Assembly (NCBI GenBank): GCA_003243255.1
Contig: QFQM01000002.1
Span: 1 to 64,000 of the forward strand
Origin: Flavobacterium psychrophilum
GTDB lineage: Bacteria; Bacteroidota; Bacteroidia; Flavobacteriales; Flavobacteriaceae
Length of the DNA: 64,000 bases
Reading direction: 5' to 3'
Shown here: in pieces, positions 5,417 to 56,204 of the stretch
How the letters are laid out: each line of letters starts with the position of its first letter
Position numbering within the stretch: position 1 is the first letter of the stretch
The notes under the pieces: generated by a model
Database searches by the model: none
What the model was told of the DNA's origin: nothing
The model's input: only the letters and a program-made list of their open reading frames with translations
Made by a program: the position numbers and the translations under genes

Positions 5417-5420
5417 GTTT

Positions 5421-34487: not shown

Positions 34488-35643
34488 ACTCTTTGTTGTT
34501 TAGTATATCGCATAAATCATCCATCAGGTGGAACAGCCTGCATTCAAAATCAAGGCTATCGTTCTCCTGCGCCCGACCGTCAAAGATGCGCCGCAGTACA
34601 GGCTCTTGTATTTGCGTGTATTCGCCGAACTCGGCGTTCACGCATTCGGACAGGGTTTGGTAGAGCCACCCTTTCGTATCGGCGCAGAAGCCGATGTATT
34701 TATCCATCGTGATGCAGTCCTCATCGCCATTCCCGTCAAGGTCGGGCAGTACGCTCCTGTCAGCATTGCGGTAAAGGCTCTCCTGCGGGTAATCCCGCAT
34801 CAGTTGCAGGCAGTCCTGCGCCAAGGTCAGGCAGTCCCAATCATAGGTATTGCGCGGGACAAGTTTTTCGGCATTGGCTTGCAGATGCTCAAGACTGTAG
34901 GTATTCCACAGCCTGCGCAGCATCACACCGCCGATATGCTGCGCCTCGTGCAGCTGTGAGCGTTGCTGCCAGTAGTATTCCTGTTCCCATCCTTCGGGGT
35001 CGGCTTCGACCCACTCGGCTATCATGTCGTATTGCCAACAGAGGTAACTACTCTCGTCATGGTAGTGCGGCATCCCTGCTTTGTGGAACAGGTAGCCGCA
35101 CACCCCGAGCAGCAGCGCTGCGCCTCTGCGCCGCCTGCGGTCTTGCATCAGGTAATGCAGGGGTACGAGCGGGATATAGTAGAGCGTATTGCCAGTGCAG
35201 TAGGTTTCTGTGACGGCAAGGCAGACCGTATTATCCTGTTGCTGCACTTCAAGCCCGATACTTTCCTCCTTCACCTTGCGCAACAGCTTATCCGCTTCCC
35301 ACAGGGCTAACGCCCTGCTGTAGGGATAGCCGTGGTGGCGGGTCGGTGTGAGGGAAATGCCATAGTGCGCCGTAAGCAGCCCAAGGGAGCGGAAGAAGGC
35401 TTCTTCTTCCTGTGGTGCTTCCGCCTTTCCCCGACCCACAAAGTGGGGCAGGAAGCGGTATTTCAGAAAACCATAGGCAGCAGCCCCTGCGGGGCAGATT
35501 GCAGCCTGTCGCGCTGCACCTCTGCGGCATCCCTGCGGCGGGAGAGTTGCAGGATGAATTCCCCTGCGCCTTGGTGTAGCCGCTTTTGGCTTCTGTCTTG
35601 GGGCAGGCGAAACTGCCCCGCTATTGTGTGTTGCATAGTCCAT
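34474..35643 (-). CDS. PRTRC system protein F-like
   Basis: 389 residues, between PRTRC C and B, where protein F is expected. The central part (about 150-290) has YYIPLVPLHYLMQDRRRRRGAALL and FHKAGMPHYHDESSYLCWQYDM, in line with the family. The first 60 residues are Ala/Pro/Arg-rich and look unlike a folded domain, so the real start may be internal or the 5' part may be altered. It overlaps protein B by 14 bases. Confidence 0.7.
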   Translation of the reverse strand: MDYATHNSGAVSPAPRQKPKAATPRRRGIHPATLPPQGCRRGAARQAAICPAGAAAYGFLKYRFLPHFVGRGKAEAPQEEEAFFRSLGLLTAHYGISLTPTRHHGYPYSRALALWEADKLLRKVKEESIGLEVQQQDNTVCLAVTETYCTGNTLYYIPLVPLHYLMQDRRRRRGAALLLGVCGYLFHKAGMPHYHDESSYLCWQYDMIAEWVEADPEGWEQEYYWQQRSQLHEAQHIGGVMLRRLWNTYSLEHLQANAEKLVPRNTYDWDCLTLAQDCLQLMRDYPQESLYRNADRSVLPDLDGNGDEDCITMDKYIGFCADTKGWLYQTLSECVNAEFGEYTQIQEPVLRRIFDGRAQENDSLDFECRLFHLMDDLCDILNNKEYGNR

Positions 35644-35653
35644 AGTTTATACA

Positions 35654-35872
35654 TTATCCTTTAGTTCCCATCAGGCTCTCAAAGCGGTACTGTACCACAT
35701 CGTTGTCAATCACGGGGCCGCTGACTTTAGCGGTCGTGAGCAGGGGGTAGGTATTGGCATAAAATTGCAGTACCGCATCCACGCTCCACGCGGGGTCGGG
35801 GTCAGCCAAGGTTATCTCCGCCTGCTGTTCCTTCATCGTGAACAGCCTCGGCATCAGGTGCGTTGTCATCAT
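35654..35872 (-). CDS. PRTRC system protein C
   Basis: 72 residues. EITLADPDPAWSVDAVLQFYANTYPLLTTAKVSGP and the terminal F-x-S-L-M-G-T-K-G closely fit PRTRC C, a small ubiquitin-like-sized partner of the ThiF protein. It overlaps the end of PRTRC E by about 70 bases in another frame. The second ATG (35869) is an equally good start. Confidence 0.88.
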   Translation of the reverse strand: MMTTHLMPRLFTMKEQQAEITLADPDPAWSVDAVLQFYANTYPLLTTAKVSGPVIDNDVVQYRFESLMGTKG

Positions 35873-36452
35873 AATCTTCGGTATTAGGTTCTACGGGTGT
35901 CTCGGGGGCGGCAGCCACGAACAGGTCGGGAGCGAACTGCTTCGACAGGCTTGCCCTGCGCGCGCGCAGGGTATCGGCACGGTCGGGATAGTCGGAAGGC
36001 TGCGGCACTTTGCTCCACGCTTCCTTAAATTTCCCTGCCGCCTCAAGGGCATCCACCTGCGCCATCGCATCAAAGTATCGTTTTTCCTTGGGGTCTTGTG
36101 GTGCAGCCTTGTCGGCTTTGTCCTCTTTATCGGTTTTCTCCGCCTTTTTCTTTTCCATTGCGGATTGCTTCTTGGCTTCTTCCTGCCCTTTCAGGAACTG
36201 CTCCATGTTGAGCAGCAATTTTGAGGTCTGCTGTACTGGCTCGGCTATAGCGGGAAAAAATCCCTCGCCGAGTTCCTTCGCATCGCCTTTGAGGATGAGC
36301 GGGGGTATATGCTTCTTGGCGGCATCCCCGCAGCCGTCATTTTGCAGCAGCACCGATACGGTCAGCTTCGCACCCTCTTTTTTGAGGGTCAGGTTCAGGC
36401 AGCCCTCAAACTCAAGGGCTGCCACCTGGCTGAAAAAATTGGTCATTGCCAT
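35802..36452 (-). CDS. PRTRC system protein E
   Basis: 216 residues from the ATG at 36452 (MAMTNFFSQVAALEF); an upstream extension in the same frame is not credible because it overlaps another gene. The N-terminal half fits PRTRC E (LTLKKEGAKLTVSVLLQNDGCGDAAKKHIPPLILKG). A Lys/Glu/Asp-rich linker (about 110-145) and a region typical of the C-terminus (KFKEAWSKVPQPSDYPDR) follow. Confidence 0.88.
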   Translation of the reverse strand: MAMTNFFSQVAALEFEGCLNLTLKKEGAKLTVSVLLQNDGCGDAAKKHIPPLILKGDAKELGEGFFPAIAEPVQQTSKLLLNMEQFLKGQEEAKKQSAMEKKKAEKTDKEDKADKAAPQDPKEKRYFDAMAQVDALEAAGKFKEAWSKVPQPSDYPDRADTLRARRASLSKQFAPDLFVAAAPETPVEPNTEDYDDNAPDAEAVHDEGTAGGDNLG

Positions 36453-36456
36453 AATC

Positions 36457-36642
36457 TTAATTTTTAGGTTCGTAATAATGGGGGCTGCTTTCCACAACCG
36501 CCCGTAAAAGGTTCTCCGCTTTGCGCACCTCGAAAGCATCTTCTGCGCTCATGCCGAGGCGTTCCAATTCCCCGAAACGGGGCAGCGGGCTTTCGATTAC
36601 CCTGATGGCAGCCATTTCCGTAATGTCGGTCAGGCGGCTCAT
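36457..36642 (-). CDS. Small unknown protein of the PRTRC operon
   Basis: 61 residues (contains RLTDITEMAAIRVIESPLPRFGELERLGMSAEDAFEVRKAEN). Its ATG overlaps the stop of the 134-residue gene by 4 bases and it ends 5 bases before protein E, so it is positioned as a real operon member. No family recognised. Confidence 0.65.
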   Translation of the reverse strand: MSRLTDITEMAAIRVIESPLPRFGELERLGMSAEDAFEVRKAENLLRAVVESSPHYYEPKN

Positions 36643-37043
36643 GGCGATGCGGTATAGTGGTCAAACAGCAGCTGCACAGCAAGCCCATAACGCCTGTTCT
36701 CGGGCAGTGGTGGCAGTGCCGCCGCCTGCTTTACGATGCAGTCGATGGTCAGGATGGCGAGATAGCCGTCAAAAAGCTGGTCTGAAAACAGGCTCGTACT
36801 TTTGGTCAGCTTCTGCCCGTAGTTGCGTATGATGCTGTGTGCCTGCTCAGCAAGCTGCATCCAAAAGTCAAAAGGGAGCAGGGTATTTTCCCAAGTGCTG
36901 CGCAGGGTCTCCTCATTTTCATTCAGGAAGGCGTGCGCTGCGGTCAGGCTGTCCAGTATGCCCTGCAGCTGTTCAGGGAACAGGGCGGCAAGCAATTTGC
37001 CCTTGTCCACGTTGTTCATATTTTGAAGTGGTTTCATAATCAT
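36639..37043 (-). CDS. Unknown protein of the PRTRC operon
   Basis: 134 residues, helical, acidic N-terminus. It contains KLLAALFPEQLQGILDSL and a middle LPFDFWMQLAEQAHSIIRNYG. Two later ATG codons (MKPLQ, MNNVD) are alternative starts. It lies between DUF932 and PRTRC E, and is translationally coupled to the 61-residue gene. Function unknown. Confidence 0.7.
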   Translation of the reverse strand: MIMKPLQNMNNVDKGKLLAALFPEQLQGILDSLTAAHAFLNENEETLRSTWENTLLPFDFWMQLAEQAHSIIRNYGQKLTKSTSLFSDQLFDGYLAILTIDCIVKQAAALPPLPENRRYGLAVQLLFDHYTASP

Positions 37044-37083
37044 AAAGTTTATGCAGCCCCGCGGCGGGGGCTGCGGTTATACA

Positions 37084-38127
37084 TCAGTTCAGGTGCAGGG
37101 CAGCTGCCCCGCTTTTTGCAAAGTCGGTACAGAGGTCAAAAGCTTTCTGCGCCCTTGCCTGCGCCGTGCCGCCGAGGTAGATAGATTTCATCTTGTCCTC
37201 ATCGCTCTTGAAACTGCGCACATTTTGGTAGTAGCCTGTCACGGCATTGTACGCCCCGAAGACTGTCCCTTTGGTGGTTTCCATCTGCTGCGTATCGCTT
37301 GCCATCGCGTAACCGAATGCGGCATCGCAGGCATTTTTGAACACGCTTGACAGCTCGTCATCCGCACCTTTTTTCAAAAGCTGCAATGTTTCATTGTTGG
37401 GGCAAAGCGCCAACTGTATCACCTTTTTGACCTGTGCATCCTCAATGCGCACTTTAGACCAGTCGTTAAAAATTCCCTCCAACTGTACCGACAGGGTATC
37501 TGCCAGTCCCATGACCCTGTGGGCATCCTCCAACCGTTGTTTTGCGTTGGCGGTATGCCTGATGCGCACCACGTTTGACATATTCCGTATGGCGGCGTTC
37601 AGCGTGTTTTGGCATACGATGCGGATAGGGGTAAAGGCGGCTGTGATGCTGCCCGAGCCATCGTGTGAGGTAGTCAGGAATATGTACTTTTCGGTTACGT
37701 CATCCCCGTTGCCGACACGGATGTAGCCGGGCAGTTTGGCAGTGATGAAAATGCGCTCACCCTGCCCGATAGCCCCTGCGGTCTCGTACAGGATGCCGTC
37801 CCCGCCGCCCACGATGGCATCAAAGAAGGCGAACGCATCGGCGTTCTGCACGATTTGGTAGTCCTTGCCCACCACTCCGAAAACGGCATTGGTATCGGTG
37901 CGCATCGTGGCGTACTGGTCAGGTACGGCAAAGTCGATGGCAGGTTCTGTGCCTTTGGCGAAAAGTGGTGCTTTTACCACTTCGTAATCTAACCCTGCGT
38001 GCGCTATCGCCTCGCGGGAAGTCGGGTAGTCCTGCACGATTTGCCCAAGGGCATGCCATGCAGTTTGCTTCACGCTGAAAAAGGAATATTTTCCAGTCTG
38101 TTCGTTGAAATTCAGGTTATGTGCCAT
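37084..38127 (-). CDS. DUF932 (phage/plasmid-like) protein
   Basis: 347 residues. The start (MAHNLNFNEQTGKYSFFSVKQTAWHALG) and blocks such as PIRIVCQNTLNAA are typical of DUF932, a protein common on plasmids, phages and PRTRC modules. Function is unknown; an association with DNA metabolism is presumed from context (SSB next door). Confidence 0.9.
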   Translation of the reverse strand: MAHNLNFNEQTGKYSFFSVKQTAWHALGQIVQDYPTSREAIAHAGLDYEVVKAPLFAKGTEPAIDFAVPDQYATMRTDTNAVFGVVGKDYQIVQNADAFAFFDAIVGGGDGILYETAGAIGQGERIFITAKLPGYIRVGNGDDVTEKYIFLTTSHDGSGSITAAFTPIRIVCQNTLNAAIRNMSNVVRIRHTANAKQRLEDAHRVMGLADTLSVQLEGIFNDWSKVRIEDAQVKKVIQLALCPNNETLQLLKKGADDELSSVFKNACDAAFGYAMASDTQQMETTKGTVFGAYNAVTGYYQNVRSFKSDEDKMKSIYLGGTAQARAQKAFDLCTDFAKSGAAALHLN

Positions 38128-39041: not shown

Positions 39042-40400
39042 ATGAACAATTTTAAGTTGCTAGCGATTCGCCCTATGAAAGGGTGCGATAGCAAATTTAC
39101 TAAGAACCTTACAGAAGGGCAAATTTATCAATTTTATACCCCTTACCGCTTCTATGATTCCGAATCAAAACCTATACTTAAAGCGTCAGAGCAGGCTGTT
39201 GCATTCATTGATTCAGATAAAGAGGCCAGTCCGGGATTGTACAATAAGCTGACCGCTGATGGCCATACACTTTTCATATCGATTTCGGCCGTAGCAGGCA
39301 GAAACGGCTCAGGAAAAAGTTCACTTATTGAACTGCTTTTTGCAGCAATCTATTTATATTCAGTTACTAATGAAGTGCTTTCGCCCAATATTCGGGAACT
39401 TAGTGACTACAACGAATTCCTTGATAAAGACAATGATAGCTTAAAAGGAGATGCATCGGAACTGCTGGGAAGGAAGGATACGATCAAAGCGACATTACAA
39501 GAGTTATGTGAGGGAAAATATAATGAATCGGTAAAACATACAAACTCCGAGCGGGGTAAGGCAGAGTTGAATAAAGAACAAGTGCTTTTTGAAAAATTAA
39601 AAGAGAATTTCACGGATTTTGCAGACAGGGAAAAGAAGATAGTAAACCGTATTCAGTTTATAATAGATAAAAAGAAAGAGAATGACGCAAAGAAAAATGA
39701 CATTGTTGAGTTTGGGAAAAAGCTAAAAGTAGAAGTCTATTATGAAATCGATGGCAATTTTTATCGTCTAGTGCTGGATTACAATAAGGACGTCATTTCC
39801 AAAATTGAAGCAATACCCAATCTAAATACAGATATAATCTCACTGGCTCCAGATACTGCAATCGCGAAATTATCGAGGCATTTTTTCTATTCTATTGCTG
39901 TAAATTACTCTCACCATGCTTTAAACGCTACACATATGGGTGACTGGATTAACGCGCTTTTTCTCAAGAATGATGGATATACGGCACCTTTAGTACTGAA
40001 TCCCATGCGTAAAGGGGGTAATTTCAATATTAATGATGAAATGCGCTTTGCACGCTATAGGCTGCTGACAAATGCTGTCAAAGAGAAAATTGCAAATCCG
40101 TCAAAAGATTATAACGTATACGTAACAGATAATCAATTTATTGATAAAGTTAAATTGACTTTAAACTGGCCTAAAATTGATAGAATTCGCCGCGAACTGA
40201 AGTGTAAGGCTAATGGTACTATAAGTAGTTATGATCTGAGGTCTCGAAACTTTTTTGACACTCTTATTGCCGATTATCTGGGATCTGGAGAACTGGTAAA
40301 ACTTAATACTTATAATTTCCCGCTTAAGGAGATTATTATAAATTACATATTGCAAAAAATAGAACGTATTCCAGAAACATATCCTTGGTTTGGAGGGTAA
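39042..40400 (+). pseudogene. Septu-like AAA/ABC ATPase, N-terminal part, split by IS
   Basis: The first 451 residues of an ATPase. Walker A is AGRNGSGKSSL near 84-94, and a coiled-coil-like charged region covers about 130-240. The frame is cut by the insertion sequence at 40396; the TAA at 40398-40400 belongs to the IS. Removing the IS and one GTTTGGAG copy joins it in frame (PWF-GEG-YQF) to 44408-45318, giving a 754-residue protein. The gene is therefore probably inactive unless the IS excises precisely. Confidence 0.85.
40388..40395 (+). repeat. Target-site duplication, left copy
   Basis: GTTTGGAG immediately before the left inverted repeat; identical to 44400-44407. Confidence 0.9.
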
Positions 40401-42062: not shown

Positions 42063-42213
42063 GACAATTAAAATAAAATTTAGCTTTTTGGAAGTATAAA
42101 TAAGACGCTGTACATTAGCGTTATGCGGGTGTTAAATGTAGAAGATTATTACACTAATTATTAGGATAAGTGTAACTAAATCAATACCTTTAGTGAAGAA
42201 AAATCTCCGCATC

Positions 42214-43152
42214 ATGTTTAATAAATCCTTTACTTCAATTTTAGATGTCATCAATAATTTCCCTGATGAACAAGCCTGTATCGAATACTTAGAAGAGGCA
42301 CGCTGGGGCAATAATGTGATTAGTCCGTTCGATGAAACTTCAAAAGTATATGAATGTAAAAACAACCGTTACAAGTGTAAGAACACAGGTAAGTATTTTA
42401 ATGTGCGCACTAAAACTATGTTTGATAATTCTAAAATAGAACTGCAAAAATGGTTTATAGCAATTTGGTTATGCACTTCGCATAAAAAATCAATGAGCAG
42501 TTTACAATTAGGCAGGGATTTGAATATTACACAAAAGTCAGCTTGGTTTATGCTTCAACGTATTAGAAACTGTTTTGATATAGATGATACACCATCAGAT
42601 AATATGGTTGAAGTTGATGAAACCTATATAGGCGGTGCAAATAAGAATAAAAGCTTATCTAAGCGAAGAGAACTCCATAAAAATGGCGCACAAACAGGAG
42701 GTAATCATAAAAAACCTGTATTAGGGATATTAGAAAGAGAAGGAAGATTAAAAGGTATAGTTATCCCTGAAAGTACAGGTAAAACTATTAAGCCTATTCT
42801 ATTTGATGAAATAAAACAGTCTGCTATTGTAGTAACTGATGGATCGGGAGTATATAAAGACATAAACAAAAACTTTAGCGACCACCAAAAAGTATATCAC
42901 AATAAAGACCAATATGTAAACGGACAATATCATACAAATACAATAGAGGGATTTTGGGCATTACTGAAAAGAAATATCTTTGGGATACATCATTCGGTTA
43001 GCACAAAGCATCTACAGTTGTATGTAAACAATATGGTGTTCCACTACAATGAAAGAAAATTAACTACACACGAGCGATTTAATTTACTAATTTTAAACTC
43101 TGATACGAGATTAAAGTATAAAGACTTAATAAGAAAGAATGGCGAGGATTAA
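42214..43152 (+). CDS. IS1595-family transposase
   Basis: 312 residues from the ATG at 42214; a GTG seven codons earlier is possible. Zinc-ribbon-type N-terminus (YECKNNRYKCKNTGKYFNVRTKTMF), then the ISXO2-like DDE domain with VEVDETYIGGANKNKS, VVTDGSGVYKDI and HTNTIEGFWALLKRNIFG. These give the catalytic acidic residues and N-x-E-G-F-W block of the family. It moves the surrounding element. Confidence 0.93.
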   Translation: MFNKSFTSILDVINNFPDEQACIEYLEEARWGNNVISPFDETSKVYECKNNRYKCKNTGKYFNVRTKTMFDNSKIELQKWFIAIWLCTSHKKSMSSLQLGRDLNITQKSAWFMLQRIRNCFDIDDTPSDNMVEVDETYIGGANKNKSLSKRRELHKNGAQTGGNHKKPVLGILEREGRLKGIVIPESTGKTIKPILFDEIKQSAIVVTDGSGVYKDINKNFSDHQKVYHNKDQYVNGQYHTNTIEGFWALLKRNIFGIHHSVSTKHLQLYVNNMVFHYNERKLTTHERFNLLILNSDTRLKYKDLIRKNGED

Positions 43153-44407: not shown

Positions 44408-45318
44408 AGGGGTATCAATTCAGCGACAGGACACCGTTTATCGAAAATGAAAAGTTTTTCAAGGCAATCAAGGAAGATAACAGCCATATTACTTACAAGT
44501 TAAAACAAGCAATAAATTTTCTGGTATTTAACTTAAATGCACCATCTAACGGAGCTTTTTATGTAGACCAGAAAATACTAGATAAAAAGGGAATAGTCGA
44601 ATTTGAATTTACGTTGCCGGAACTTATTGATTGGATGGGAAGCACGTCAGGAATTGAGATAATGCAAACACTGCCGCCTGCTATATTTGAAATTGACTTT
44701 ATCTTGTCTAATGATTTGCGTTCAAAATCCTCTTTCACGAGTCTAAGTTCAGGGGAGCAACAACTTATCCATACAATACAGTCTGTAATATACCATGTGA
44801 ATAATCTGCAGTCTACCCATCTCGGTAGTAGCAATGAAAGAGCAAAATACAATGCAATAAATATCATTTACGATGAGATTGAGCTTTATTTCCACCCTGA
44901 TTATCAGCGTAGGTTCATCAACGACCTTCTTCGGGCATTTGAGAGAATTTATATGAATTCTGAGCATAACAGGATAAAGTCAATCAATATATTATTTCTT
45001 ACCCATTCTCCATTTATTCTCTCTGACATCCCTTCAGAAAACATTCTCCTACTGGAACTTGACCGTAAAACGAAGAAGTCAGTGCCACTGCCCAAAGTTT
45101 CACAGACATTTGCAGCAAATATCAATGACCTCTTAGCAAATGGATTTTTCCTTGACGGAACCCTAATTGGAAAGTTTGCTGAAAATCTAATTAGGGATAT
45201 CATAGAAAAAATTAAGCGTGGTGAGCAGCTAACTGCAAAAGATAAGAATTTAATAGCTTTGGTAGGTGATTCTTTCCTAAGATCAAGTCTGCAGAACTTT
45301 ATGACCAGCGAGCAATGA
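44408..45318 (+). pseudogene. Septu-like ATPase, C-terminal part
   Basis: In-frame continuation of 39042-40395. It holds the ABC signature LSSGEQQL and Walker B NIIYDEIELYFHP, then an LTHSPFILSDI switch block. An ATG at 44614 could start a truncated 234-residue product that lacks Walker A. It overlaps the HNH gene by 4 bases (ATGA), the usual coupling of such pairs. Confidence 0.82.
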
Positions 45319-46556
45319 TTAAGATTCAGATTAATGATAAGGAGCAGCTAAAGCTGGATTATCTAGATAAAATTAGTCCAGAGCTTATTGAAGCACTAAA
45401 AAAAATGGATCTATCGCTTGCCCATCTGTTAGAACCTTCGAAGATTAACGATACTGATATAAGCAAGGCAAAACATTTAACTATTGCGATTGTCAATATA
45501 TTGCGTACCCCTGCCAAACCAGCATCTTATTTTAAAAAAAGTGTCTACAGGAATGGTGTCAAAAACTACGCAAAAAAGGCAAAAAAACTGATGATTGTCA
45601 ATCTTTCAGGATTATCGGGCCTGATTAAGGAATTATTAGATCTGACAAGTGGTAGCCTTGATTCACTTTTAGTTGGTGATGCGGAAAGTATAAAGAGGAC
45701 TAATGATGAACTACTAAACAAACACTTGCTTGGCACTCCATCAGAAATTGACATATTAAAGCTTGCATTTAAATATAAAGAAAGCAAATTAGGTGGCATA
45801 GTCCGTGAATTTTTTTACGATGCAAAATTGACAGTTTACTGTCCCTATTGCAATCAAAACCTGGCAATACGAAACTCAAATAAGGCTACAGGGGTTACAG
45901 GAGACTCCTTTCAGTTGGATCACTTTTTTGATCAGGATAACTATCCGCTATTGGCTCTCTCTTTATTCAATCTGGTGCCAAGTGATAGCAATTGCAACAC
46001 AGTTAACAAGAAGACTAAACGATTCAGTGATGAATTGCATTTGAACCCTTATATATCTGGTTTTGGACGCGACATGGTTTTTAGAAACATATATGACCCA
46101 CTTACTTTAGAAATATTCAGTATTTCATTAGACATTACCGTTCCACGAAATTCCCCGAGGCATCTCCAATTGATTGGCGACTTTGATAAACCTAATGAAT
46201 CACTTGGACACGGCAATATCAATGTTTTCCAATTGGAAACCAGGTATAACAGAGCCGATGTGCTTAAAAAAGCGGCAATACTTTTTCAGGATCTGAAAAA
46301 TGACGCTGTCAATAAAAGTTCTTTGGATTCCATACTTGCAGGCACCGGATTGGCTAACTCGTACAGCAACTTCGTATCGTACTATGAGCGGAAAGTCCGT
46401 GCAGAATTCCACGAAAAAGATTTTGGTAAAGAAGGATATTCCAAACTTTATCGTGACATCCTTGATCAAGTTTATGGACTGTACCCAACTACATTTAATA
46501 AGGAGGTAAGGGAGATAATTGAAAAAAGTTATGACAAGACTGTCAGGGGGGAGTGA
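45315..46556 (+). CDS. HNH endonuclease, PtuB-like partner
   Basis: 413 residues. The N-terminal 170 are helical. The HNH core has CPYCNQ (near 176-181), FQLDHFFDQDNYPLLALSLFNLVPS (about 198-222), then SDSNCNTVNK, giving Cys-rich zinc sites and the His of an HNH fold. Pairing of an SMC/ABC-like ATPase with an HNH nuclease is the Septu (PtuAB) layout. The protein is longer than classic PtuB, so call it Septu-like. It appears intact, but the ATPase gene upstream is broken. Confidence 0.8.
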   Translation: MIKIQINDKEQLKLDYLDKISPELIEALKKMDLSLAHLLEPSKINDTDISKAKHLTIAIVNILRTPAKPASYFKKSVYRNGVKNYAKKAKKLMIVNLSGLSGLIKELLDLTSGSLDSLLVGDAESIKRTNDELLNKHLLGTPSEIDILKLAFKYKESKLGGIVREFFYDAKLTVYCPYCNQNLAIRNSNKATGVTGDSFQLDHFFDQDNYPLLALSLFNLVPSDSNCNTVNKKTKRFSDELHLNPYISGFGRDMVFRNIYDPLTLEIFSISLDITVPRNSPRHLQLIGDFDKPNESLGHGNINVFQLETRYNRADVLKKAAILFQDLKNDAVNKSSLDSILAGTGLANSYSNFVSYYERKVRAEFHEKDFGKEGYSKLYRDILDQVYGLYPTTFNKEVREIIEKSYDKTVRGE

Positions 46557-46682: not shown

Positions 46683-49490
46683 TTAACTGTAGAAAATTGG
46701 TAATGTTCCAATAAATACATCGCTAAATCCAAATAATTCCCGCTCTTCATCATATTTTCCTAAAGGAGTTTCCAAATTCACGGTTTTGGCGTAGCACCAT
46801 TTAAGCTTTGAAAACCCATAAGTCTTGCTGAAGATGATACAGTTAATATCCCTGTTTGTAACGGTTCTTTTAAGATTTTTAGGATTCTCCCTGTATATGT
46901 TAAGCCACATTTTATACTTAATGTGAAAGTTTATGATTTCCTGAATATCGTCGACTGATAAGAATTCACTGTGCTTCAATTTCTCGATAGACTTCAACAA
47001 TTCTGAACTTAATGCTTCTGAGTGTGGAAAAGTATCCAATAGGTGGAAAATATTCAATAATAAAAGATGTTTCGTGTCTTTAGTCTTGTCTGGCCATCTG
47101 CAATGCATTAATGTTATGATTGACATTGTTAGCAGCCTGCCTTTTTTTTCATCCCATCTTGCAATTTCCTCTGGCCGGTTCAATTTATCTTTGGTAAGCA
47201 ATAACAAAAATGACCCCAAACCATTTATAATGTAGTCGGATATTCCCTCATAAAAATAATCTTTCGGCCAAATCAATGATGGTAAGAAAGAGTGGTTTGT
47301 TGAGATACTTGCTGTGTGATCTATCTGCTTTGTTACAATCATAGTATTCAATTGTATTTCACTTCTGAGGCCGGGCAGATTCGCTTCGTCCACAGTATAT
47401 GAAATTTCATTCTTCATGTTTCCTGCTTGGGAGGTAGAGCGTAATAAGCCGAACTTGTATTCCAATGGCTGTACTTCCTTACCATCGTGGAATTGTATCG
47501 TTACATGGTGCCGGTTTTCAGAATAGAAGTCAGTCCTCTTCTTTAAAATCAAGTGAAATCCAATCAATAAGGCATTAAGGTGGTAAAAGGTTGCCAGGGA
47601 TGCATCTTGTGAGAATAAATTGTTGTCGATGTGGAAGCATTTCTTCTCCCATAATGCATTAGTAATTTTCTTAAGCGTCATGGCTATCTTATGCGCTATC
47701 CTACGTCCTTCATTTGAACTCATGAGCGGCCTCTTATAGCCTGAGACTGTCTGATTATCGTCTAACCCCTCTGGAGGTGCGTCCATCGCAAGCTGTTCTA
47801 CGCTATCAGTGATGTCTTCAAATTCTTCATTGGCAAAATTGAGGCTGTTTAAAAATTCTTCTGTCCGTGAAATAATATAGTTCTCATACGATTCATCCGT
47901 TTGTACAATACTTGCATTCTTATTGAATTCGTCTTCAGGAATACTTTTCACGTTGGCCTGATGTTCCTCCTCCTGCAAAGATGGCTTTCGTGGAGCCTGA
48001 TAGCTCCTGTCAAAAACATCGTTTCGCACTGTGATGAAGTCGAGAAGCTCTTCAAGTTCGAGATCCCCGAAAAAATTTGTATTGAAAAGTGCATTTAAAT
48101 TTGCTACCCTGCTGTCGGGGTTTGTGTAGAGCAATTCCCTCTGGTTGTGTATTAGCGAAAAATTAGATACCCGTTCATCCAAAATATATATTGCCAATCT
48201 GAATGGCCTTGCAGAACAATTTTCAGGAAGTTCAAAACAATTGGTCAGCTGTAGGCCATCCAATTCTTTTTCAACTATAAGCTGTCCGTCCGGATCTTCA
48301 ATCTCTACCTTGCAGGATGTGCTAAAGGTTTTCTCAATATTAAAGGTCAGACTTTTAAGCTCCAGTTCGCTATGCTGTATAAAAACTGCAAAATTCTGCC
48401 GTTCCCGATCATTATCGTTGTTTATAATTGTTTCTTCCGGCGGAATTTTAAAGGTTCCTTTTTTGGGAATATGTATCCCTAATTCATGGAGATAGTTCCT
48501 GGCCTGCTTCGCATGTAGCAGGATCGATGCTTCTGCGCTATGCGATTCTTTGCCTGAAGTTCCGAAAGCTTCGATTGTTGCATTAGCGCTTCCAAACAGA
48601 AAAAATGTCTCGCTTTCATATTCAAACTGGAATGCTTTGGCGTGGAGCCTGTTGTGCTGGTAGTTGCTTTCCTTTTTAAGGGTAGACCAATCAGAGAATT
48701 CTATAATAGGTTCTGGTTCCATCTTATAAGGCATACTACCATATAGCGGGTCGACAACACAATGAATCTTTTTGGGCTCGAATCGCTTTATTATTTTTTG
48801 CAAGAGTCGGCCATTACTGTTGTAATATGGAGAAACGATCTTTATGCATTTCGGATATAATGGTAGGCGTTCGGACAGTTCATCGAAGATTGATTCTTTT
48901 TCATACGTGTAGAGGACCTTGATTCCTTCATGTTTTAAATCAAGCGTTTGATTAAGCTGTGCGTTATCGCTAATCGTATTGTACCAAGGAGAGTTATCTC
49001 GTACCCATTTCAGTTTTACACGGTTTGTACCCTTTACGTATGATTCAAAACTTTGCAGATAGGCAGCTACACTCTGAAAAATCGGCTCTGTCAGATTTTC
49101 ATCTTCCGTGATGTGGAATGCTGACCAGATTTCCTCATTTGAACTTAATCCTGAACTGGTAATATTGCCGGATCCCAGAGCTAAGAAACCTTTAGAATTT
49201 CCTATAGCTAATATAATCTTTGGATGGAATGCGCAAGACATCCTTATCGGAGTTATGCTGTACGTTGTCTTCGAGTTCAGGAGGCCGCAGTCAATATATT
49301 GCTGCATCTGCCTGTCGAACTGGTACGCATCAACGTAAATATTAACGTTCGTTATACCTGCCTGTCTGAGTTTAGGAAGTACACGTTGTTCAAAATAAAT
49401 AAAATCAAAAGAGTAGCACGTGATAATGCAACTATGGTACTTTTTAGAATTTTGACCAAGTAAATCCAGAATATTATGCCTGCTGATCAT
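46683..49490 (-). CDS. PLD-superfamily nuclease-like protein
   Basis: 935 residues. Two phospholipase-D-like motifs are visible: H89-P-K91 followed by G106-S-G-N109, and H283-A-K285 followed by G300-S-A-N303. This fits the two H-x-K halves of PLD-type nucleases (BfiI/Nuc type). The C-terminal 550 residues form unrecognised domains, including a linker rich in acidic residues (about 510-580). It is the last gene of a five-gene minus-strand operon and overlaps the 531-residue gene by 17 bases. The most likely role is effector nuclease of a defence system. Confidence 0.75.
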   Translation of the reverse strand: MISRHNILDLLGQNSKKYHSCIITCYSFDFIYFEQRVLPKLRQAGITNVNIYVDAYQFDRQMQQYIDCGLLNSKTTYSITPIRMSCAFHPKIILAIGNSKGFLALGSGNITSSGLSSNEEIWSAFHITEDENLTEPIFQSVAAYLQSFESYVKGTNRVKLKWVRDNSPWYNTISDNAQLNQTLDLKHEGIKVLYTYEKESIFDELSERLPLYPKCIKIVSPYYNSNGRLLQKIIKRFEPKKIHCVVDPLYGSMPYKMEPEPIIEFSDWSTLKKESNYQHNRLHAKAFQFEYESETFFLFGSANATIEAFGTSGKESHSAEASILLHAKQARNYLHELGIHIPKKGTFKIPPEETIINNDNDRERQNFAVFIQHSELELKSLTFNIEKTFSTSCKVEIEDPDGQLIVEKELDGLQLTNCFELPENCSARPFRLAIYILDERVSNFSLIHNQRELLYTNPDSRVANLNALFNTNFFGDLELEELLDFITVRNDVFDRSYQAPRKPSLQEEEHQANVKSIPEDEFNKNASIVQTDESYENYIISRTEEFLNSLNFANEEFEDITDSVEQLAMDAPPEGLDDNQTVSGYKRPLMSSNEGRRIAHKIAMTLKKITNALWEKKCFHIDNNLFSQDASLATFYHLNALLIGFHLILKKRTDFYSENRHHVTIQFHDGKEVQPLEYKFGLLRSTSQAGNMKNEISYTVDEANLPGLRSEIQLNTMIVTKQIDHTASISTNHSFLPSLIWPKDYFYEGISDYIINGLGSFLLLLTKDKLNRPEEIARWDEKKGRLLTMSIITLMHCRWPDKTKDTKHLLLLNIFHLLDTFPHSEALSSELLKSIEKLKHSEFLSVDDIQEIINFHIKYKMWLNIYRENPKNLKRTVTNRDINCIIFSKTYGFSKLKWCYAKTVNLETPLGKYDEERELFGFSDVFIGTLPIFYS

Positions 49491-51069
49491 GTTGCAAATT
49501 TTTAAGAAGTCGGCCTCCCAGATCTGAAATCTTTAAAGTTTCTTTCGAAATTATATCCATGTCCTTCAGAAATGAAAGCAGCGTATTTATACGTGGGGAT
49601 GAATAGTTGTAATCAATGCCATCGATAAATCTGATGTATCCGTCTTCCCTGATTAATTTTTCGGTGCTCTGCGATGCATTCATTTTTTGAAGTGCAACCC
49701 ATTGATGCCTGACTATGACATATTTTTTGATGAAATAAATAATAAAATCTTCAATGGGCAAATGAGCAATCTTTTCCAGTAGCGCGACAGAGTTGACAAA
49801 ACTGCTTTTTGAGTTCAGCGACCACCGATTAGCCAGGAGTGAAATTTCTGATTGGTGTGGCTTATTGGACAATATCATTTGCTTTATTAGCAATATATTA
49901 CATGCTAATTTTGCATGAGCATTTTTATGCGTCATTGTCATTATTACCATTTCGTCCTCATTATCCCCAAGCAATTCTATATCTTCAAAAGTCTTTCCCT
50001 TGTACCCAAATGCTTCTCGAAGGAATGTTATCGTTCGTTGAGTAATATCCGTGACAAAGTTATCTTCATCAATCCAGCCTCCATGACTTTGGTGTCTAAG
50101 AAACTCCAGAACAGAAAATAATGAGCCGGTACATGCCATGTGCCAATATTGCTCAAGTTGGTAGAAATACCACAAAGACAATGTTTCGTCGACACTCCCA
50201 TTTATCTGGCCTTTGGCATTGTATGCTCCGATGGTAAACTGCTGGTCAAAAAAAGCACCTTTTGATAAGCTTACACCTTCGAGTATAAGCTGGATAGACT
50301 TTTTACGGAAAAAGGTTGCTTTTGCAAGTTTAGGCTCATCCTCACCTGTCAGCAATTTCCAGATAATTTCATGTTCTGCAGAGCCAGTGGGTACTGTGAG
50401 CATATTAAATTTCGGAATCAAGGATATGATATCATCCTGAGTTAAAATTCCGTTGATCATTGCCGTTATAAAAATTGTAGAGTTCTCTTGCCCAATATTC
50501 TTTTCAAATGCTTCTGCCAACTTTAGTCCTGATATAGAATTGGGATGCTCAAAATCAGTCCTTATGAAGATACCGCTATCCTGTTCGGATTCCCGAATTA
50601 AATTGAGTTGTTTGAGAGAGCTGACATAATTTTGCCCAAAAATGCCTCTGGGATTTTTCCAGTATGTCCCATCTTTCAGTCTTTTATGTTCTCCTGTTCC
50701 CACAGTTAGGTCAAAAGCTTCGGAAGAGTTGTCAAAAATTTCCATGGCTTTTGTAATTCCACCAATTCCCTGCAGTTTTTGCTTTGCCGCTAATAGTGCC
50801 AAAATGAACTCGGCACGCCTGAGGTAATCAAATTGTTCTTTTTTGGCTGGCTTTCCCACATACTTGGCGTAGATATGGAAGAACCAACAATAGAATGAGT
50901 AATAGCGGATACGATCAGTAACATTGTTTAGACCCGGGAGGAGCAGGTCAAAGGTGCGATTTCCTGTGTTGAGCAGTCCAAGCGGATCTTGGCCAACAAT
51001 GTGAACCAGAGGTTCGCCAAGAAATGGAGCATGGATTTTTTTCTTCTCAAATTGCTGTAAGCTCATCAT
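49474..51069 (-). CDS. Unknown 531-residue protein of the PLD operon
   Basis: Begins MMSLQQFEKKKIHAPFLGEPLVHIVGQDPLGLLNTG, a striking Gly/Pro-rich N-terminus, then DRIRYYSFYCWFFHIYAKY. The rest is helical with few recognisable motifs (WVALQKMNASQ, KKYVIVRHQ). No nuclease, ATPase or membrane signature seen. Coupling to the PLD gene (17-base overlap) suggests a partner or sensor in the same complex. Confidence 0.6.
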   Translation of the reverse strand: MMSLQQFEKKKIHAPFLGEPLVHIVGQDPLGLLNTGNRTFDLLLPGLNNVTDRIRYYSFYCWFFHIYAKYVGKPAKKEQFDYLRRAEFILALLAAKQKLQGIGGITKAMEIFDNSSEAFDLTVGTGEHKRLKDGTYWKNPRGIFGQNYVSSLKQLNLIRESEQDSGIFIRTDFEHPNSISGLKLAEAFEKNIGQENSTIFITAMINGILTQDDIISLIPKFNMLTVPTGSAEHEIIWKLLTGEDEPKLAKATFFRKKSIQLILEGVSLSKGAFFDQQFTIGAYNAKGQINGSVDETLSLWYFYQLEQYWHMACTGSLFSVLEFLRHQSHGGWIDEDNFVTDITQRTITFLREAFGYKGKTFEDIELLGDNEDEMVIMTMTHKNAHAKLACNILLIKQMILSNKPHQSEISLLANRWSLNSKSSFVNSVALLEKIAHLPIEDFIIYFIKKYVIVRHQWVALQKMNASQSTEKLIREDGYIRFIDGIDYNYSSPRINTLLSFLKDMDIISKETLKISDLGGRLLKNLQHDQQA

Positions 51070-51100
51070 GAAATTTTTTATAGGAGTATTTTAAAAGAGG

Positions 51101-51763
51101 TTACACTTTGATTTTAAGAAAGTATAAATCGTTGACGCGATCCCAATTGAACTCATAATCATTCTGCAAGGATAGGTCTGCACCATAGGGACTAACTGTC
51201 TTATATTTCAGAATCGTTCCTTTGGCATATCGTTTCTGGTGTCTGAAGTCAAAATCTCCAGTATCACCGGAATATAATTCCTGATTAACATAATGGGCAT
51301 GGTCAGTTGCCAAAATGAAATAGCAGATGTCGATATCATGATTCTTATACATTTCAAGATTTGAAATGTCTTTGAAAACATCATACCTGTTATTTGGCTC
51401 CCGGTGGTTCGCCTTTTTGAAATACTTAAGCTCTATGGCAGCTTTTGTTACTGAATTATCATCCTGATATTTAATGAGTATATCAACTCGGGCACGGTCA
51501 GTTTTGCTTTTTATACTTTGTCCGTTCAGACTGATATAGGTCTCAAATTCCAAGTGGAACTTATCTGTTAATCTGAATTCATACAATTGGCCTATTGTTT
51601 TTAAAATATGTCCAAGTTCTAATTGGAATGCGGCTTCATTTTTGGCGGTTATCCCACCGAAAGCAAGCTTATTAATCAATAATTTGTATGCTGTTTCTAT
51701 AATTTCCTCTGTCAGTCTGATTTGCTCGGCTTTCTGCATGTCTTGTCTATTTTGTCTTTGCAA
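51101..51763 (-). CDS. PD-(D/E)XK-like nuclease of the PLD operon
   Basis: 220 residues. RARVDILIKYQ with D94 and AAIELKYFK with E111 and K113 match the PD-(D/E)XK catalytic pattern. An N-terminal helix bundle precedes it. The start overlaps the preceding gene (51747-52190) by 17 bases. Probably a DNA-cleaving subunit or a decoy fold; catalysis is inferred. Confidence 0.65.
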   Translation of the reverse strand: MQRQNRQDMQKAEQIRLTEEIIETAYKLLINKLAFGGITAKNEAAFQLELGHILKTIGQLYEFRLTDKFHLEFETYISLNGQSIKSKTDRARVDILIKYQDDNSVTKAAIELKYFKKANHREPNNRYDVFKDISNLEMYKNHDIDICYFILATDHAHYVNQELYSGDTGDFDFRHQKRYAKGTILKYKTVSPYGADLSLQNDYEFNWDRVNDLYFLKIKV

Positions 51764-52190
51764 CTTCTATAATATCGACATCCTCAACAGAAAAATATTG
51801 CCATTGGCCAGAATCTACATTTTTAGAGAAATTGTTTTCAGCAACATAGCTGGAATATAATTCATTAATGAAATTATCCAGCTGTTCGAAGCTAAGTAAC
51901 TCATCAAGAGTATTGGTGTTGATAAGTAGTCCGCCAAATCTTTCTAGTTGTCCCACATACGGATATTCTTTCTTATGCACCCCTACGATATATTCGTCAA
52001 GGTCGTTGCAAAAGCTGAGAATATATTCCGAATCAGATTGCTTTAATTCTTCGAGCAGCATGCTAATATTGAAATCTTCCCGACCAGTCATCAGCCGTTC
52101 GGCACCAACGAGAAAGGGAAAACTGAGCCCATACCTACCCATTGTATTACACCAGTAATCAACTAAAAATGGGAAATAAGAATTTGCCAT
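51747..52190 (-). CDS. Unknown 147-residue protein of the PLD operon
   Basis: Acidic, with MANSYFPFLVDYWCNTMGRYGLSFPF at the start and YILSFCNDLDEYIVGVHKKEYPYVGQL in the middle. No family recognised. It is placed between two coupled genes, 3 bases from the 126-residue gene. Confidence 0.6.
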   Translation of the reverse strand: MANSYFPFLVDYWCNTMGRYGLSFPFLVGAERLMTGREDFNISMLLEELKQSDSEYILSFCNDLDEYIVGVHKKEYPYVGQLERFGGLLINTNTLDELLSFEQLDNFINELYSSYVAENNFSKNVDSGQWQYFSVEDVDIIEVAKTK

Positions 52191-52193
52191 GCT

Positions 52194-52574
52194 CTATTGT
52201 AAAAAAACTGATCCCAGTGGCAGTGAAAAAGTCTCACCCCTGTAATTTAGAGTTACTCCATCGGCTCTGAAACCTTCTACTGATGCTTTCAAGGTTGATT
52301 TCAGTGCTTTTTCACATGTCACAAATGAGACATGTACAGCAAAGATTAAAGTTTTCAGGTCAGTAACTCCCTGCTCATTTTCCAAAGCATTTTCACAGCA
52401 TTCTTCCAACATAGCTTTATGCAGCGGATGAATATCTTTTATTGGCAATTCTTTTATTACTTCATTATATAGTTCTATAGAAGTCATTGGCAAGGTGTTT
52501 TTAATGGTAATAGTAAGATGAGAATCAGGAGCTTTCTGATCCAACTTGGTTAGCAATTTACAAAAAAGTTTCAA
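52194..52574 (-). CDS. Unknown 126-residue protein, first gene of the PLD operon
   Basis: Begins MKLFCKLLTKLDQKAPDSHLTITI; an internal ATG (MTSIELYNEVIKE) is another possible start. The C-terminal half has EGFRADGVTLNYRGETFSLPLG, beta-rich. Without a recognised domain. As first gene it may carry regulatory or sensing roles; that is only a positional guess. Confidence 0.55.
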   Translation of the reverse strand: MKLFCKLLTKLDQKAPDSHLTITIKNTLPMTSIELYNEVIKELPIKDIHPLHKAMLEECCENALENEQGVTDLKTLIFAVHVSFVTCEKALKSTLKASVEGFRADGVTLNYRGETFSLPLGSVFLQ

Positions 52575-52613: not shown

Positions 52614-53228
52614 CTACTGTTTAACTTTTCTAAAAGTTAAATTAATTCTTGGCAGCATATCTTTTCCCGACTTCGGGATATGATGCTCCCAATACGTATT
52701 GGTGGCTCCTGACATCAGTAATAATGTGCCATGATGCAAGGGAATCTCCAGTTGAGGCACAGATTTATCCGTCTTATGCCTGAACCGGAATGGTCTGGTC
52801 TGCCCGAAGGTTACCGAAGCAATAGAAGGGTTCTTACCTATTTTATGCTCCTTATCCGAATGCCAAGCAACGCTGTCATTCCCGTTGCGGTACAGATTCA
52901 GCAATACGGCATTGAAGGAAAGCCCGGTCTCTTTTTCAACTTTTCCGCGCAATTCCAAAAGCTCTGGTGTCCATGGCAGGGCACTTTCGTCCGCTTCTTC
53001 CTGCTCGCCATACCAGGCGATCATACGGGGAGCCGTAACCACCTTATCATACATAGGCATCTGGTATTCGTGCCATGGCGTACTATGCAATAGCGCATGG
53101 TAATACCGGTCAGCTTCTTCTTTAGGGATGAAAGCATCCAGCTTCATCAACTCAAGGCCGGGCAAGTCATATACTTTTTTTTGTTCTGTACCTGTAGTAA
53201 ACAGTTCATTATCATCAAATAGTGTCAT
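52614..53228 (-). CDS. AlkB-like 2OG-Fe(II) dioxygenase
   Basis: 204 residues. WHSDKEHKIGKNPSIASVTFGQTRPFRFRHK contains the HxD metal pair and, with LLMSGATNTYWEHHIPK, the third His and the Arg-rich 2-oxoglutarate region (INLTFR). It demethylates damaged DNA or RNA bases. It is a separate minus-strand unit, 39 bases upstream of the PLD operon, so it may be transcribed with it. Confidence 0.88.
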   Translation of the reverse strand: MTLFDDNELFTTGTEQKKVYDLPGLELMKLDAFIPKEEADRYYHALLHSTPWHEYQMPMYDKVVTAPRMIAWYGEQEEADESALPWTPELLELRGKVEKETGLSFNAVLLNLYRNGNDSVAWHSDKEHKIGKNPSIASVTFGQTRPFRFRHKTDKSVPQLEIPLHHGTLLLMSGATNTYWEHHIPKSGKDMLPRINLTFRKVKQ

Positions 53229-53245
53229 ACATCGTTTTGTTTACG

Positions 53246-53686
53246 TTATGATTTTTGTTTAGCCTCAACCATCTTATGCCTTGGCAGGTTGATTTCCTGT
53301 TCCTGCGGATAAGGGGCGCGGTGCGTCATAGAGACATCCTCCCGGAGCCTGTCCTGGGTGCGTAAGCTTTCAGCATCCGTTTCCCTATAGCGTGGGTCGG
53401 GTATAAATGGCATCTTTTCCATTTTGGATATCGTGATGGTAGGGAAGTGGTAATCCACTTCAACCGTGCCCAGCAGCAAATAGCAGCCGCCCCCTTTAAA
53501 AGGATATTCTTTCAGGCTTCCCGTGAAATGAGCGGTATCGAAAAATTCCCCATTTGCATCGATCCAGGTCCCAAAATACATGGCACCCATCTTGGTTGGC
53601 ACATGCTTGCGCGATACGAGATAGGCGAGCATCTTCACCTGCTTCTTATGATGCTTCACCAAATCGCGTGCCATCACAGGATTCAA
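53246..53686 (-). pseudogene. Truncated dnaE (DNA polymerase III alpha) C-terminal piece
   Basis: 146 residues matching only the end of DnaE-type polymerases: KMLAYLVSRKHVPTKMGAMYFGTWIDANGEFFDTAHF, then GGGCYLLLGTVEVDYHFP and DPRY. This is the OB-fold tail. About 850 residues that should precede it are absent, and the frame begins with a non-ATG codon exactly at a junction. It is a remnant of an element-borne polymerase gene, next to alkB, as found in DNA-repair cassettes. Confidence 0.75.
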
Positions 53687-54453: not shown

Positions 54454-54618
54454 ATGGAAAGGGATGATGAAAGTGAGCAGGGAAAAATATCCCCGGAGGA
54501 TGCCATGCGCATGCTGAAATCCGAGGGCATAATTATAGATGTAGAACAAGCAGCAGAAATATTGTTTCTTCTTCGAAAAATCGCTAATATAGCGGTTTCC
54601 AAATATTTAGAACGATGA
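54454..54618 (+). CDS. 54-residue companion of recombinase 2
   Basis: Encodes MERDDESEQGKISPEDAMRM, then LKSEGIIIDVEQAAEILFLLRK. The last 4 bases (ATGA) overlap the recombinase start, so translation is coupled. The residue pattern and length match the 54-residue protein next to recombinase 1 (8601-8765). A recombination-control factor is a reasonable guess, without direct evidence. Confidence 0.7.
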   Translation: MERDDESEQGKISPEDAMRMLKSEGIIIDVEQAAEILFLLRKIANIAVSKYLER

Positions 54619-56165
54619 AAAGGATAGCAGACTTATACGTGAGGGTGAGTACCGATGAACAGGCGGAAAAAGGCTACTCCCAAAGAAACCAGGAAGAGCT
54701 TCTGAGAAAATATTGCAGTATAAACGGCATACAAATCCGCGATGTCATCTATGAAGACCATTCGGCAAAAACATTCAACAGGCCCCAGTGGAAAAAGCTG
54801 CTGGTCAACCTGAAAAAGAATAAAAATAAGATTGACCTCGTACTGTTTATGAAGTGGGACAGGTTTAGCAGGAATGCAGGGGATGCCTACCAGATGATAA
54901 GCCTGCTCAGAAAGCTGGGCGTGGAGCCGCAGGCCATTGAGCAGCCCCTTGATCTGACCATTCCGGAAAATAAGATGATGCTTGCCTTTTACCTGGCCGC
55001 GCCGGAGGTAGAAAACGACAGGCGCGCGCTCAACACCTTCCATGGGCTGCGCCGTGCAAGAAAAGAGGGGCGTTACATGGGCATGGCACCTTACGGCTAT
55101 GCCAATAAGATTACCGAAGACGGCAAAAAATATATTGCGCCCGTACTCAAAGAGGCGAAACTGGTGCGATGGATCTTTGAGGAAATCGCAAAAGAAATAT
55201 TCAATACGGAGTCTATCTATCACATGGCAAAGGATAGGGGGCTTACCTGCACAAAAGGTAATTTCTGGATCATGATAAAAAACCCTTTGTACTTCGGCAA
55301 GATCATAGTCCCCAAGTATAAAGATGAGGAAGCGATATTGGTTGATGGGCAGCACGAGGCGATAATCAGTGAAGGCCTTTATTACAGGGTACAGGATGTC
55401 CTGGCGGGCAGGTCAAGAAATTACAGGCCGAAAGTACAGACCACAGAAAATTTCCCGCTCAGAGGCTTCTTTCTCTGTCCACAATGCGACAGGAAGCTTA
55501 CCGGGAGCAAATGCAAAGGTCGCCATAAGCATTATTACTACTATCATTGTGAAGCCAGCTGCAAGTACAGGATCAATTCGGATAAAGCGAATGAAATATT
55601 TATAGAGCACCTTAACGGGTACAAGCCAATACCAGAGGTTAAAAAATTATATTCAGCGGTGCTCCTTGAAGCGTATAAAGAGCATACCGGCAATGCAGCC
55701 AGTGAAAAAAAGAAGATGCTTGCACAGATTACCGAATATGAAAAAAAGCTCTCCAATGCGAGAAACCTTCTTGTAACCGAAAAGATCGATGTGGAAGATT
55801 ACAATCTGATGAAGTCCGATTACAACTCTGTCATCACTAAACTTGAAAAACAACTCGGCGATACAAATTTCGAAAAAGGAGACATTGAAGATTTAATGGG
55901 TAAGGGGCTTAACAACCTGATTTCCTTGGGTTCAGCTTATGAGAACGGCACACTTGCTGATGCGAGGGAGATGATTGGTTTAATTTATCCCGAAAATTTC
56001 ACGTTTCGCGGAAACAGTTTCCAAACCGCTCGGGTCAACGAAATTATGAACTGTATCTATCTGGTTAACAATGAGTTGAAATCAAAAAAAAACGGGACAA
56101 AAGACGATTTTTTCGCTTTGTCCCGAGTAGTGACCTCGACTGGATTCAAACCAGTAACCTTCTGA
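54615..56165 (+). CDS. Large serine recombinase 2
   Basis: 516 residues. Catalytic domain with LYVRVSTDEQ (Ser11) and KWDRFSRN; a recombinase domain; a zinc ribbon CPQCDRKLTGS ... YYHCEASC; C-terminal coiled coil around 375-420. Related to recombinase 1. The last 20 or so codons lie over the terminator and T arm of the tRNA-Arg gene on the other strand (tail SRVVTSTGFKPVTF), so this tail is derived from the host attachment site. The free element may encode another C-terminus. Confidence 0.93.
   Translation: MKRIADLYVRVSTDEQAEKGYSQRNQEELLRKYCSINGIQIRDVIYEDHSAKTFNRPQWKKLLVNLKKNKNKIDLVLFMKWDRFSRNAGDAYQMISLLRKLGVEPQAIEQPLDLTIPENKMMLAFYLAAPEVENDRRALNTFHGLRRARKEGRYMGMAPYGYANKITEDGKKYIAPVLKEAKLVRWIFEEIAKEIFNTESIYHMAKDRGLTCTKGNFWIMIKNPLYFGKIIVPKYKDEEAILVDGQHEAIISEGLYYRVQDVLAGRSRNYRPKVQTTENFPLRGFFLCPQCDRKLTGSKCKGRHKHYYYYHCEASCKYRINSDKANEIFIEHLNGYKPIPEVKKLYSAVLLEAYKEHTGNAASEKKKMLAQITEYEKKLSNARNLLVTEKIDVEDYNLMKSDYNSVITKLEKQLGDTNFEKGDIEDLMGKGLNNLISLGSAYENGTLADAREMIGLIYPENFTFRGNSFQTARVNEIMNCIYLVNNELKSKKNGTKDDFFALSRVVTSTGFKPVTF
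56093..56125 (-). terminator. Terminator of tRNA-Arg
   Basis: CGGGACAAA and TTTGTCCCG form a stem, and on the minus strand a run of nine T follows (A-run 56084-56092). It lies within the 3' end of the recombinase 2 gene, on the opposite strand. Confidence 0.8.
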
Positions 56166-56204
56166 GCCGTAATCAGATGCGCTATTCAGTTGCGCCACGA
56201 GGCC
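56131..56204 (-). tRNA. tRNA-Arg (anticodon ACG)
   Basis: 74 bases including the discriminator A. Acceptor GGCCTCG/CGAGGTC, anticodon stem TCTGA/TCAGA with loop TTACGGC (anticodon ACG), T arm ACTGG-TTTGAAT-CCAGT. All stems pair. Its 3' half serves as the integration site of the adjacent element. Confidence 0.93.

Follow-up and report, generated by a model that had tools for sequence, protein, structure and literature searches.

The locus at 46683..52574 of Flavobacterium psychrophilum contig QFQM01000002.1 raises the question of which of its five closely packed minus-strand open reading frames (ORFs) belong together. An earlier note on this DNA had taken all five for one undescribed defence system. 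We examined the locus within the whole 64,000-nucleotide stretch, here called the window. The analysis indicates that two of the five genes, which encode a ZacA-like protein of 531 aa and a phospholipase D (PLD) type protein of 935 aa, form one conserved two-gene unit; this conclusion is well supported. We judge the three remaining genes to be passengers. The five ORFs are, in the order of transcription:

52194..52574, minus strand: ORF of 126 aa (possibly 97 aa); regarded as a passenger of the mobile element
51747..52190, minus strand: protein of 147 aa, no family assigned; judged a passenger
51101..51763, minus strand: PD-(D/E)XK-like protein of 220 aa (212 aa from Met9), member of a separate widespread family; judged a passenger
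49474..51069, minus strand: ZacA-like partner of 531 aa (530 aa from Met2), with an N-terminal ZacA/DUF6361-type domain and a possible C-terminal winged helix
46683..49490, minus strand: TDP1-like PLD protein of 935 aa, with the catalytic domain at residues ~1-360 and further parts to residue 935

The coordinates and lengths given earlier for these ORFs were confirmed, as was their packing, with neighbouring ORFs overlapping or no more than 31 bases apart. The ORFs are real; the starts of two, and perhaps three, of them probably lie later than was assumed. For the 531-aa ORF the probable start is Met2; for the 126-aa ORF it may be residue 30, where the first ATG lies. The start of the 220-aa ORF is treated below.

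Conservation of the pair and of its companions

Protein searches among ~8000 scored candidates gave 122 relatives of the 531-aa protein and 394 of the 935-aa protein at E<=1e-3. The lists of the best 120 of each have 38 contigs, matched by equal size, in common. We assembled 50 pair loci, of which 44 came from a genome scan with the 531-aa family alignment, 5 from plasmid records (out of 15 matching ones) and 1 from a viral contig. The PLD gene directly follows the 531-aa-type gene in 46 of these 50 loci, with gaps of -28 to +7 bases. The four loci without an adjacent PLD gene are L049, a match of only 63 residues; L010, a truncated copy with a 330-aa ZacA-like ORF and no PLD gene; and L032 and L046, in which the locus runs into the contig end. 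The PLD frame is broken into pieces in L014, L026 and L027. A further copy of the pair, L083, stands outside the 50-locus count. The pair occurs in many Bacteroidota and, via plasmids, in Proteobacteria. Because the adjacency is nearly constant, and because the two lists of relatives have contigs in common, we conclude that the two genes form a unit. The genes overlap and are presumably co-transcribed.

The proteins of 126, 147 and 220 aa gave no match at E<=1e-3 in 49 pair loci in a single-sequence search. Conserved co-occurrence, which the earlier note had set beforehand as the test of a five-gene system, thus fails for three of the five genes. The boundary of the five-gene operon is itself arbitrary, since the same packing continues upstream of the 126-aa ORF, with gaps of 39 and 17 bases, into two further ORFs:

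52614-53228, minus strand: AlkB-like gene (AlkB-like oxygenase, Pfam E 3e-32)
53246-53686, minus strand: ORF of 146 aa, adjoining the AlkB-like gene on the same strand

Close gene packing by itself does not define a system, as the case of the five ORFs shows.

The 220-aa protein belongs to a large, well-conserved family, with 621 relatives scoring E<=1e-3. Identities among the 120 best of these are 69-91% and most are 212 aa long, so the ORF probably starts at Met9. The D...E-L-K pattern of a PD-(D/E)XK nuclease is present as claimed; profile support for that assignment stays below threshold (Pfam E 0.009-0.047). In one genus, members were found in 6 of 398 genomes at E<=1e-6. The four closest relatives in this genus (71-76% identical) were read over 7-18 kb each; they lie among small genes, and the pair was not seen beside them. 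One contig of 134193 bases, matched by size, is common to the best-120 list of 220-aa relatives and those of the pair. It is listed for relatives of the 220-aa (91%), the 531-aa (75%) and the PLD gene (67%), and we take it as one contig. We judge the 220-aa protein to be a passenger, though one that may be linked to the pair in a single close relative.

In the same draw of 398 genomes, the family of the 147-aa protein has 16 relatives in 15 genomes, none of which is among the 6 that carry the 220-aa family; the 2-3.4 kb read around these relatives contained neither the pair nor the 220-aa gene. We read stretches around relatives of the 220-aa protein at 18 distinct places and around relatives of the 147-aa protein at 17; the pair was in none of them, nor did either gene turn up in the stretches of the other. 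The 18 places correspond to 23 stretches, 5 of which repeat a place already covered. The length read was 2-4 kb at all of the 147-aa places and at half of the 220-aa ones, and 7-18 kb at the remaining 220-aa places. L054, which is the same place as L072, and L060, where the match lies within a 1104-aa frame, were left out of this comparison. We judge the 147-aa protein to be a passenger, possibly a putative immunity protein. The 126-aa ORF gave one weak plasmid match of 51 residues, ~600 bases from tra (conjugation) genes; it is judged a passenger of a mobile element.

The surroundings of these families were also inspected. Relatives of the 220-aa protein lie among spaced, mostly same-strand small genes (L073:4297-15426, L075:414-17229, also L074 and L076), with some diverged intergenic repeats in L075; these runs resemble immunity-gene or cassette arrays. 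The 147-aa relatives in loci L084-L099 lie among runs of small unrelated genes. The Sphingobium plasmid pANTQ-1 carries a 220-aa-family gene (L050:4980-5642) that is missing from the gene table of the record, which instead lists an opposite-strand ORF at 5013-5450.

The PLD protein and its ZacA-like partner

The catalytic domain of the 935-aa protein (residues ~1-360) contains two PLD motifs, H89/K91/N109/E120 and H283/K285/N303/E320. It is followed by a beta-rich domain (~370-450), a poorly modelled linker (~490-590) and a mostly helical C-terminal part (~590-935). The two H-x-K...G-S-x-N halves that had been pointed out earlier are present and invariant in an alignment of 69 chosen sequences; H, K, N and E of both halves are conserved in 69/69, down to ~18% identity to the window protein. 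The sequences depart from the HKD type, H-x-K-(x)4-D, with Asp at the fifth place in 0/69 sequences in the first half and 4/69 in the second. TDP1-like PLD proteins are marked by an H-K-N-E signature, and TDP1 likewise lacks the HKD Asp. The Foldseek comparison suggested in the earlier note gave TDP1 as the closest solved fold of the 935-aa protein, and TDP1 also came first by VIA. With these four residues in each half and a PLD fold, the protein carries the TDP1-like signature, and it is likely to be a DNA-cutting enzyme.

The 531-aa protein had been counted among three unknown proteins. This description holds for the 126- and 147-aa proteins, which match nothing in Pfam, PADLOC or NCBIfam. 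The 531-aa protein is probably a remote ZacA/DUF6361 relative. The window protein matches the PADLOC model of ZacA with an E of 3e-4, and 17 of 21 family members, the window protein included, match it at E<=0.01 (best 6e-9). Comparison of the family profile with ZacA by hhalign gave an E of 1.3e-4 and a probability of 54% over 86 N-terminal columns. The AlphaFold2 model of the protein has a predicted local distance difference test score of 91. Among the 82 sequences chosen for the family alignment, HTH_45 was found in 5, below the cut-off and C-terminal in both cases that could be located. A winged helix at the C-terminus is possible, and the protein is possibly the DNA-reading partner of the PLD protein.

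Genomic surroundings of the pair

HsdM, HsdS or HsdR is in reach in 27 of the 50 pair loci, according to our own cluster models, each of which was checked against Pfam through one representative. The pair sits between hsdS and hsdR in L001 and L018, and directly after hsdR in L014, L019, L037-L039 and L041. Of 30 loci taken from the 44 genome loci, 16 have HsdS no more than 9 kb away, versus <=1.1% of randomly chosen places in these genomes; the observed and expected values come from different HsdS models. Because the models differ and because defence genes cluster anyway, we read this enrichment as a defence neighbourhood more than as a specific partnership. A quick tree was built from the window copy and 46 loci (47 rows, 18 of them restriction-adjacent); on it, restriction adjacency changes 9 times, at least 7 of them on well-supported branches, and some long branches make placements unsure. 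The pair has repeatedly come to lie next to type I restriction genes, which hints at a layered strategy of restriction.

The four nearest relatives of the window copy are L006-L009. The pair follows hsdR and a 236-aa gene in L007-L009, whereas L006, a short contig, gave no match to restriction genes. The 236-aa protein between hsdR and the pair (L007:8230-8940, and at the corresponding place in L008 and L009) has an HExxH motif, and we take it to be YgjP-like. The HsdM, HsdS and HsdR models match none of the 209 ORFs of the window at E 0.01; here the pair is without restriction genes nearby and lies on a common strand with the passenger genes. Other defence systems are found beside the pair, namely Zorya in L003 and a PDC-M62 pair in L015, L016 and the window. 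The remaining features of the integrated element in the window are:

33010-38127, minus strand: PRTRC-type genes (ThiF, E2 family D, PRTRC_E) with DUF932, adjoining metal-efflux genes
39042-40400, 42193-43152, 44614-45318 and 45315-46556, plus strand: PDC-M62 (Septu-like) region with transposase, PADLOC PDC-M62A/B
54615-56165: serine recombinase ORF, the end of which overlaps tRNA-Arg at 56130-56204

An IS1595-family transposase lies between the two pieces of the PDC-M62 ATPase gene; the HNH-like partner comes next as one open frame. The earlier description of this neighbour as Septu-like was right in kind, PDC-M62A/B being the best PADLOC match. A PLD protein with an unfamiliar partner, in a defence neighbourhood within an integrated element, is likewise supported by our data. 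The 146-aa ORF has relatives of up to 73.5% identity in 6 plasmid records, and in 3 of these they lie under dnaE-annotated features. The AlkB-like gene and the 146-aa ORF (52614-53686) are perhaps the remnant of a mobile DNA-repair or mutagenesis cassette.

Proposed role and comparison with known systems

We propose that the two genes at 49474-51069 and 46683-49490 are a functional unit, which is probably a helicase-less, Azaca-like defence cassette; anti-phage defence is its likely role. The ZacA-like protein would bind DNA or a DNA-bound partner via its conserved N-terminal domain and the possible C-terminal winged helix, and would recruit or license the 935-aa PLD protein. PLD-type nucleases cleave via a phosphohistidine intermediate and need no metal ion; in this way the PLD protein could cut the invading DNA. 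HsdR is itself a DNA translocase. Where the pair stands beside or inside type I restriction-modification operons, as it does in many hosts, HsdR may supply the motor, as ZacC would in Azaca. We infer nuclease activity, DNA binding, anti-phage function and the use of HsdR. A bolder version, which we put forward only tentatively, is that the pair is a portable cutting module, a helicase-less Azaca that lost its own motor or never had one; its recogniser would dock on the HsdR of any type I restriction operon in which the module lands, and in this element the PD-(D/E)XK-like protein may have been taken up in place of HsdR. If this were true, borrowed HsdR translocation would be turned into metal-independent cleavage.

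The 220-aa gene is also central to another explanation, namely that its product joined the pair in this lineage as a second nuclease, giving a three-gene variant. The gap of 31 bases on the same strand between the 220-aa and the 531-aa gene would fit, as would the 134193-base contig that apparently holds relatives of all three genes. However, this is the only other contig that appears to do so; the pair is seen in 0/18 distinct 220-aa places in the stretches read, the 220-aa gene at 0/49 pair loci, and the closest 220-aa relatives in one genus lie among small genes. We consider this variant unlikely. The five-gene defence system of the earlier note is far less plausible; the tight packing that speaks for it runs on into the AlkB-like gene and a further ORF, and co-occurrence is lacking for three of the five, since the 126-, 147- and 220-aa genes were found at none of the 49 pair loci searched.

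It is also conceivable that the pair serves to repair DNA ends. A TDP1-like enzyme would then strip covalently bound protein, the substrates of which could arise from restriction, recombination or conjugation, and would protect the host or the element rather than attack phage. TDP1 as the closest solved fold, the missing HKD Asp in the PLD family and the carriage of the pair on plasmids and an integrated element make this a fair rival. The likeness of the pair to two proteins of a defence system, ZacA and ZacB, and its co-location with Zorya, PDC-M62 and restriction systems argue against it, and we regard it as rather improbable. Finally, the pair could be the non-functional remnant of an Azaca whose helicase was lost. 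In keeping with this, no ZacC was found in the window, and the ORFs at the 50 loci gave none but a distantly related, DrmD-like helicase. Yet the active-site residues are invariant in 69/69 sequences, down to ~18% identity, and one helicase-less arrangement recurs in 46 loci, which is not a product of decay. This is the explanation to which we give the least credence.

Several known systems resemble the helicase-less cassette that we favour. The likeness to TDP1 lies in the fold of residues 1-360 of the 935-aa protein. DISARM and Dpd have in common with the pair a PLD nuclease within multi-gene defence loci, with weak profile matches to DrmC (6e-4) and DpdK (8e-3) and, for DISARM, a helicase resembling DrmD close to the pair in L004; however, the DrmC and DpdK profiles matched span 153 and 173 positions, and no other DISARM or Dpd protein was found among ten window proteins scanned. 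As to type I restriction-modification, a same-strand Hsd gene lies within 1.3 kb in 18/46 relatives, whereas no restriction gene is in reach at 23/50 loci. Elsewhere, a passage of PMC12458937 describes PLD nucleases that occur with YprA helicases, and a passage of PMC12839542 concerns BrxA and FokI.

The closest resemblance is to Azaca. A passage of PMC10952713 gives Azaca a PLD-like domain, and one of PMC12278908 counts ZacC among proteins with an SF1/SF2 helicase domain. For comparison, a ZacA model search of 296 genomes of the phylum gave 2 strong matches, both true ZacA-ZacB-ZacC loci, and 1 weak match, the pair copy L083. The order of a ZacA-like gene and then a PLD gene is the same in the pair as in both true loci, with the ZacB-like PLD gene directly downstream of the ZacA-like one and overlapping it. 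The window 935-aa protein matches the PADLOC model of ZacB with an E of 1e-11, the similarity being limited to the PLD part; the second PLD motif matches ZacB by hhalign with an E of 1.2e-6 and a probability of 91% over 51 columns, the ZacA and ZacB profiles being built from two sequences each. The probable likeness of the 531-aa protein to ZacA is confined to an N-terminal stretch of ~86 residues. On the other side, the pair proteins are longer (531 versus ~410 aa for ZacA, 935 versus 610-662 aa for ZacB), the similarity is partial, and the pair often adjoins type I restriction genes.

Furthermore, two real ZacC sequences match none of the 209 window ORFs at E<=1, and a search of the ORFs of the 50 pair loci, some of which are short, gave only the distant DrmD-like helicase in L004 (3e-10). 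Because the ZacC helicase was not found, we do not file the pair as Azaca; it would work like ZacA-ZacB and is probably related to them, and yet is not Azaca. No Pfam, PADLOC or NCBIfam model covers the pair end to end. A passage of the review PMC12926258 gives the mechanism of Azaca as unknown, and the literature listings that we searched held no account of it. A helicase-free natural version would separate recognition and cutting from the motor, and would thus make the Azaca mechanism testable.
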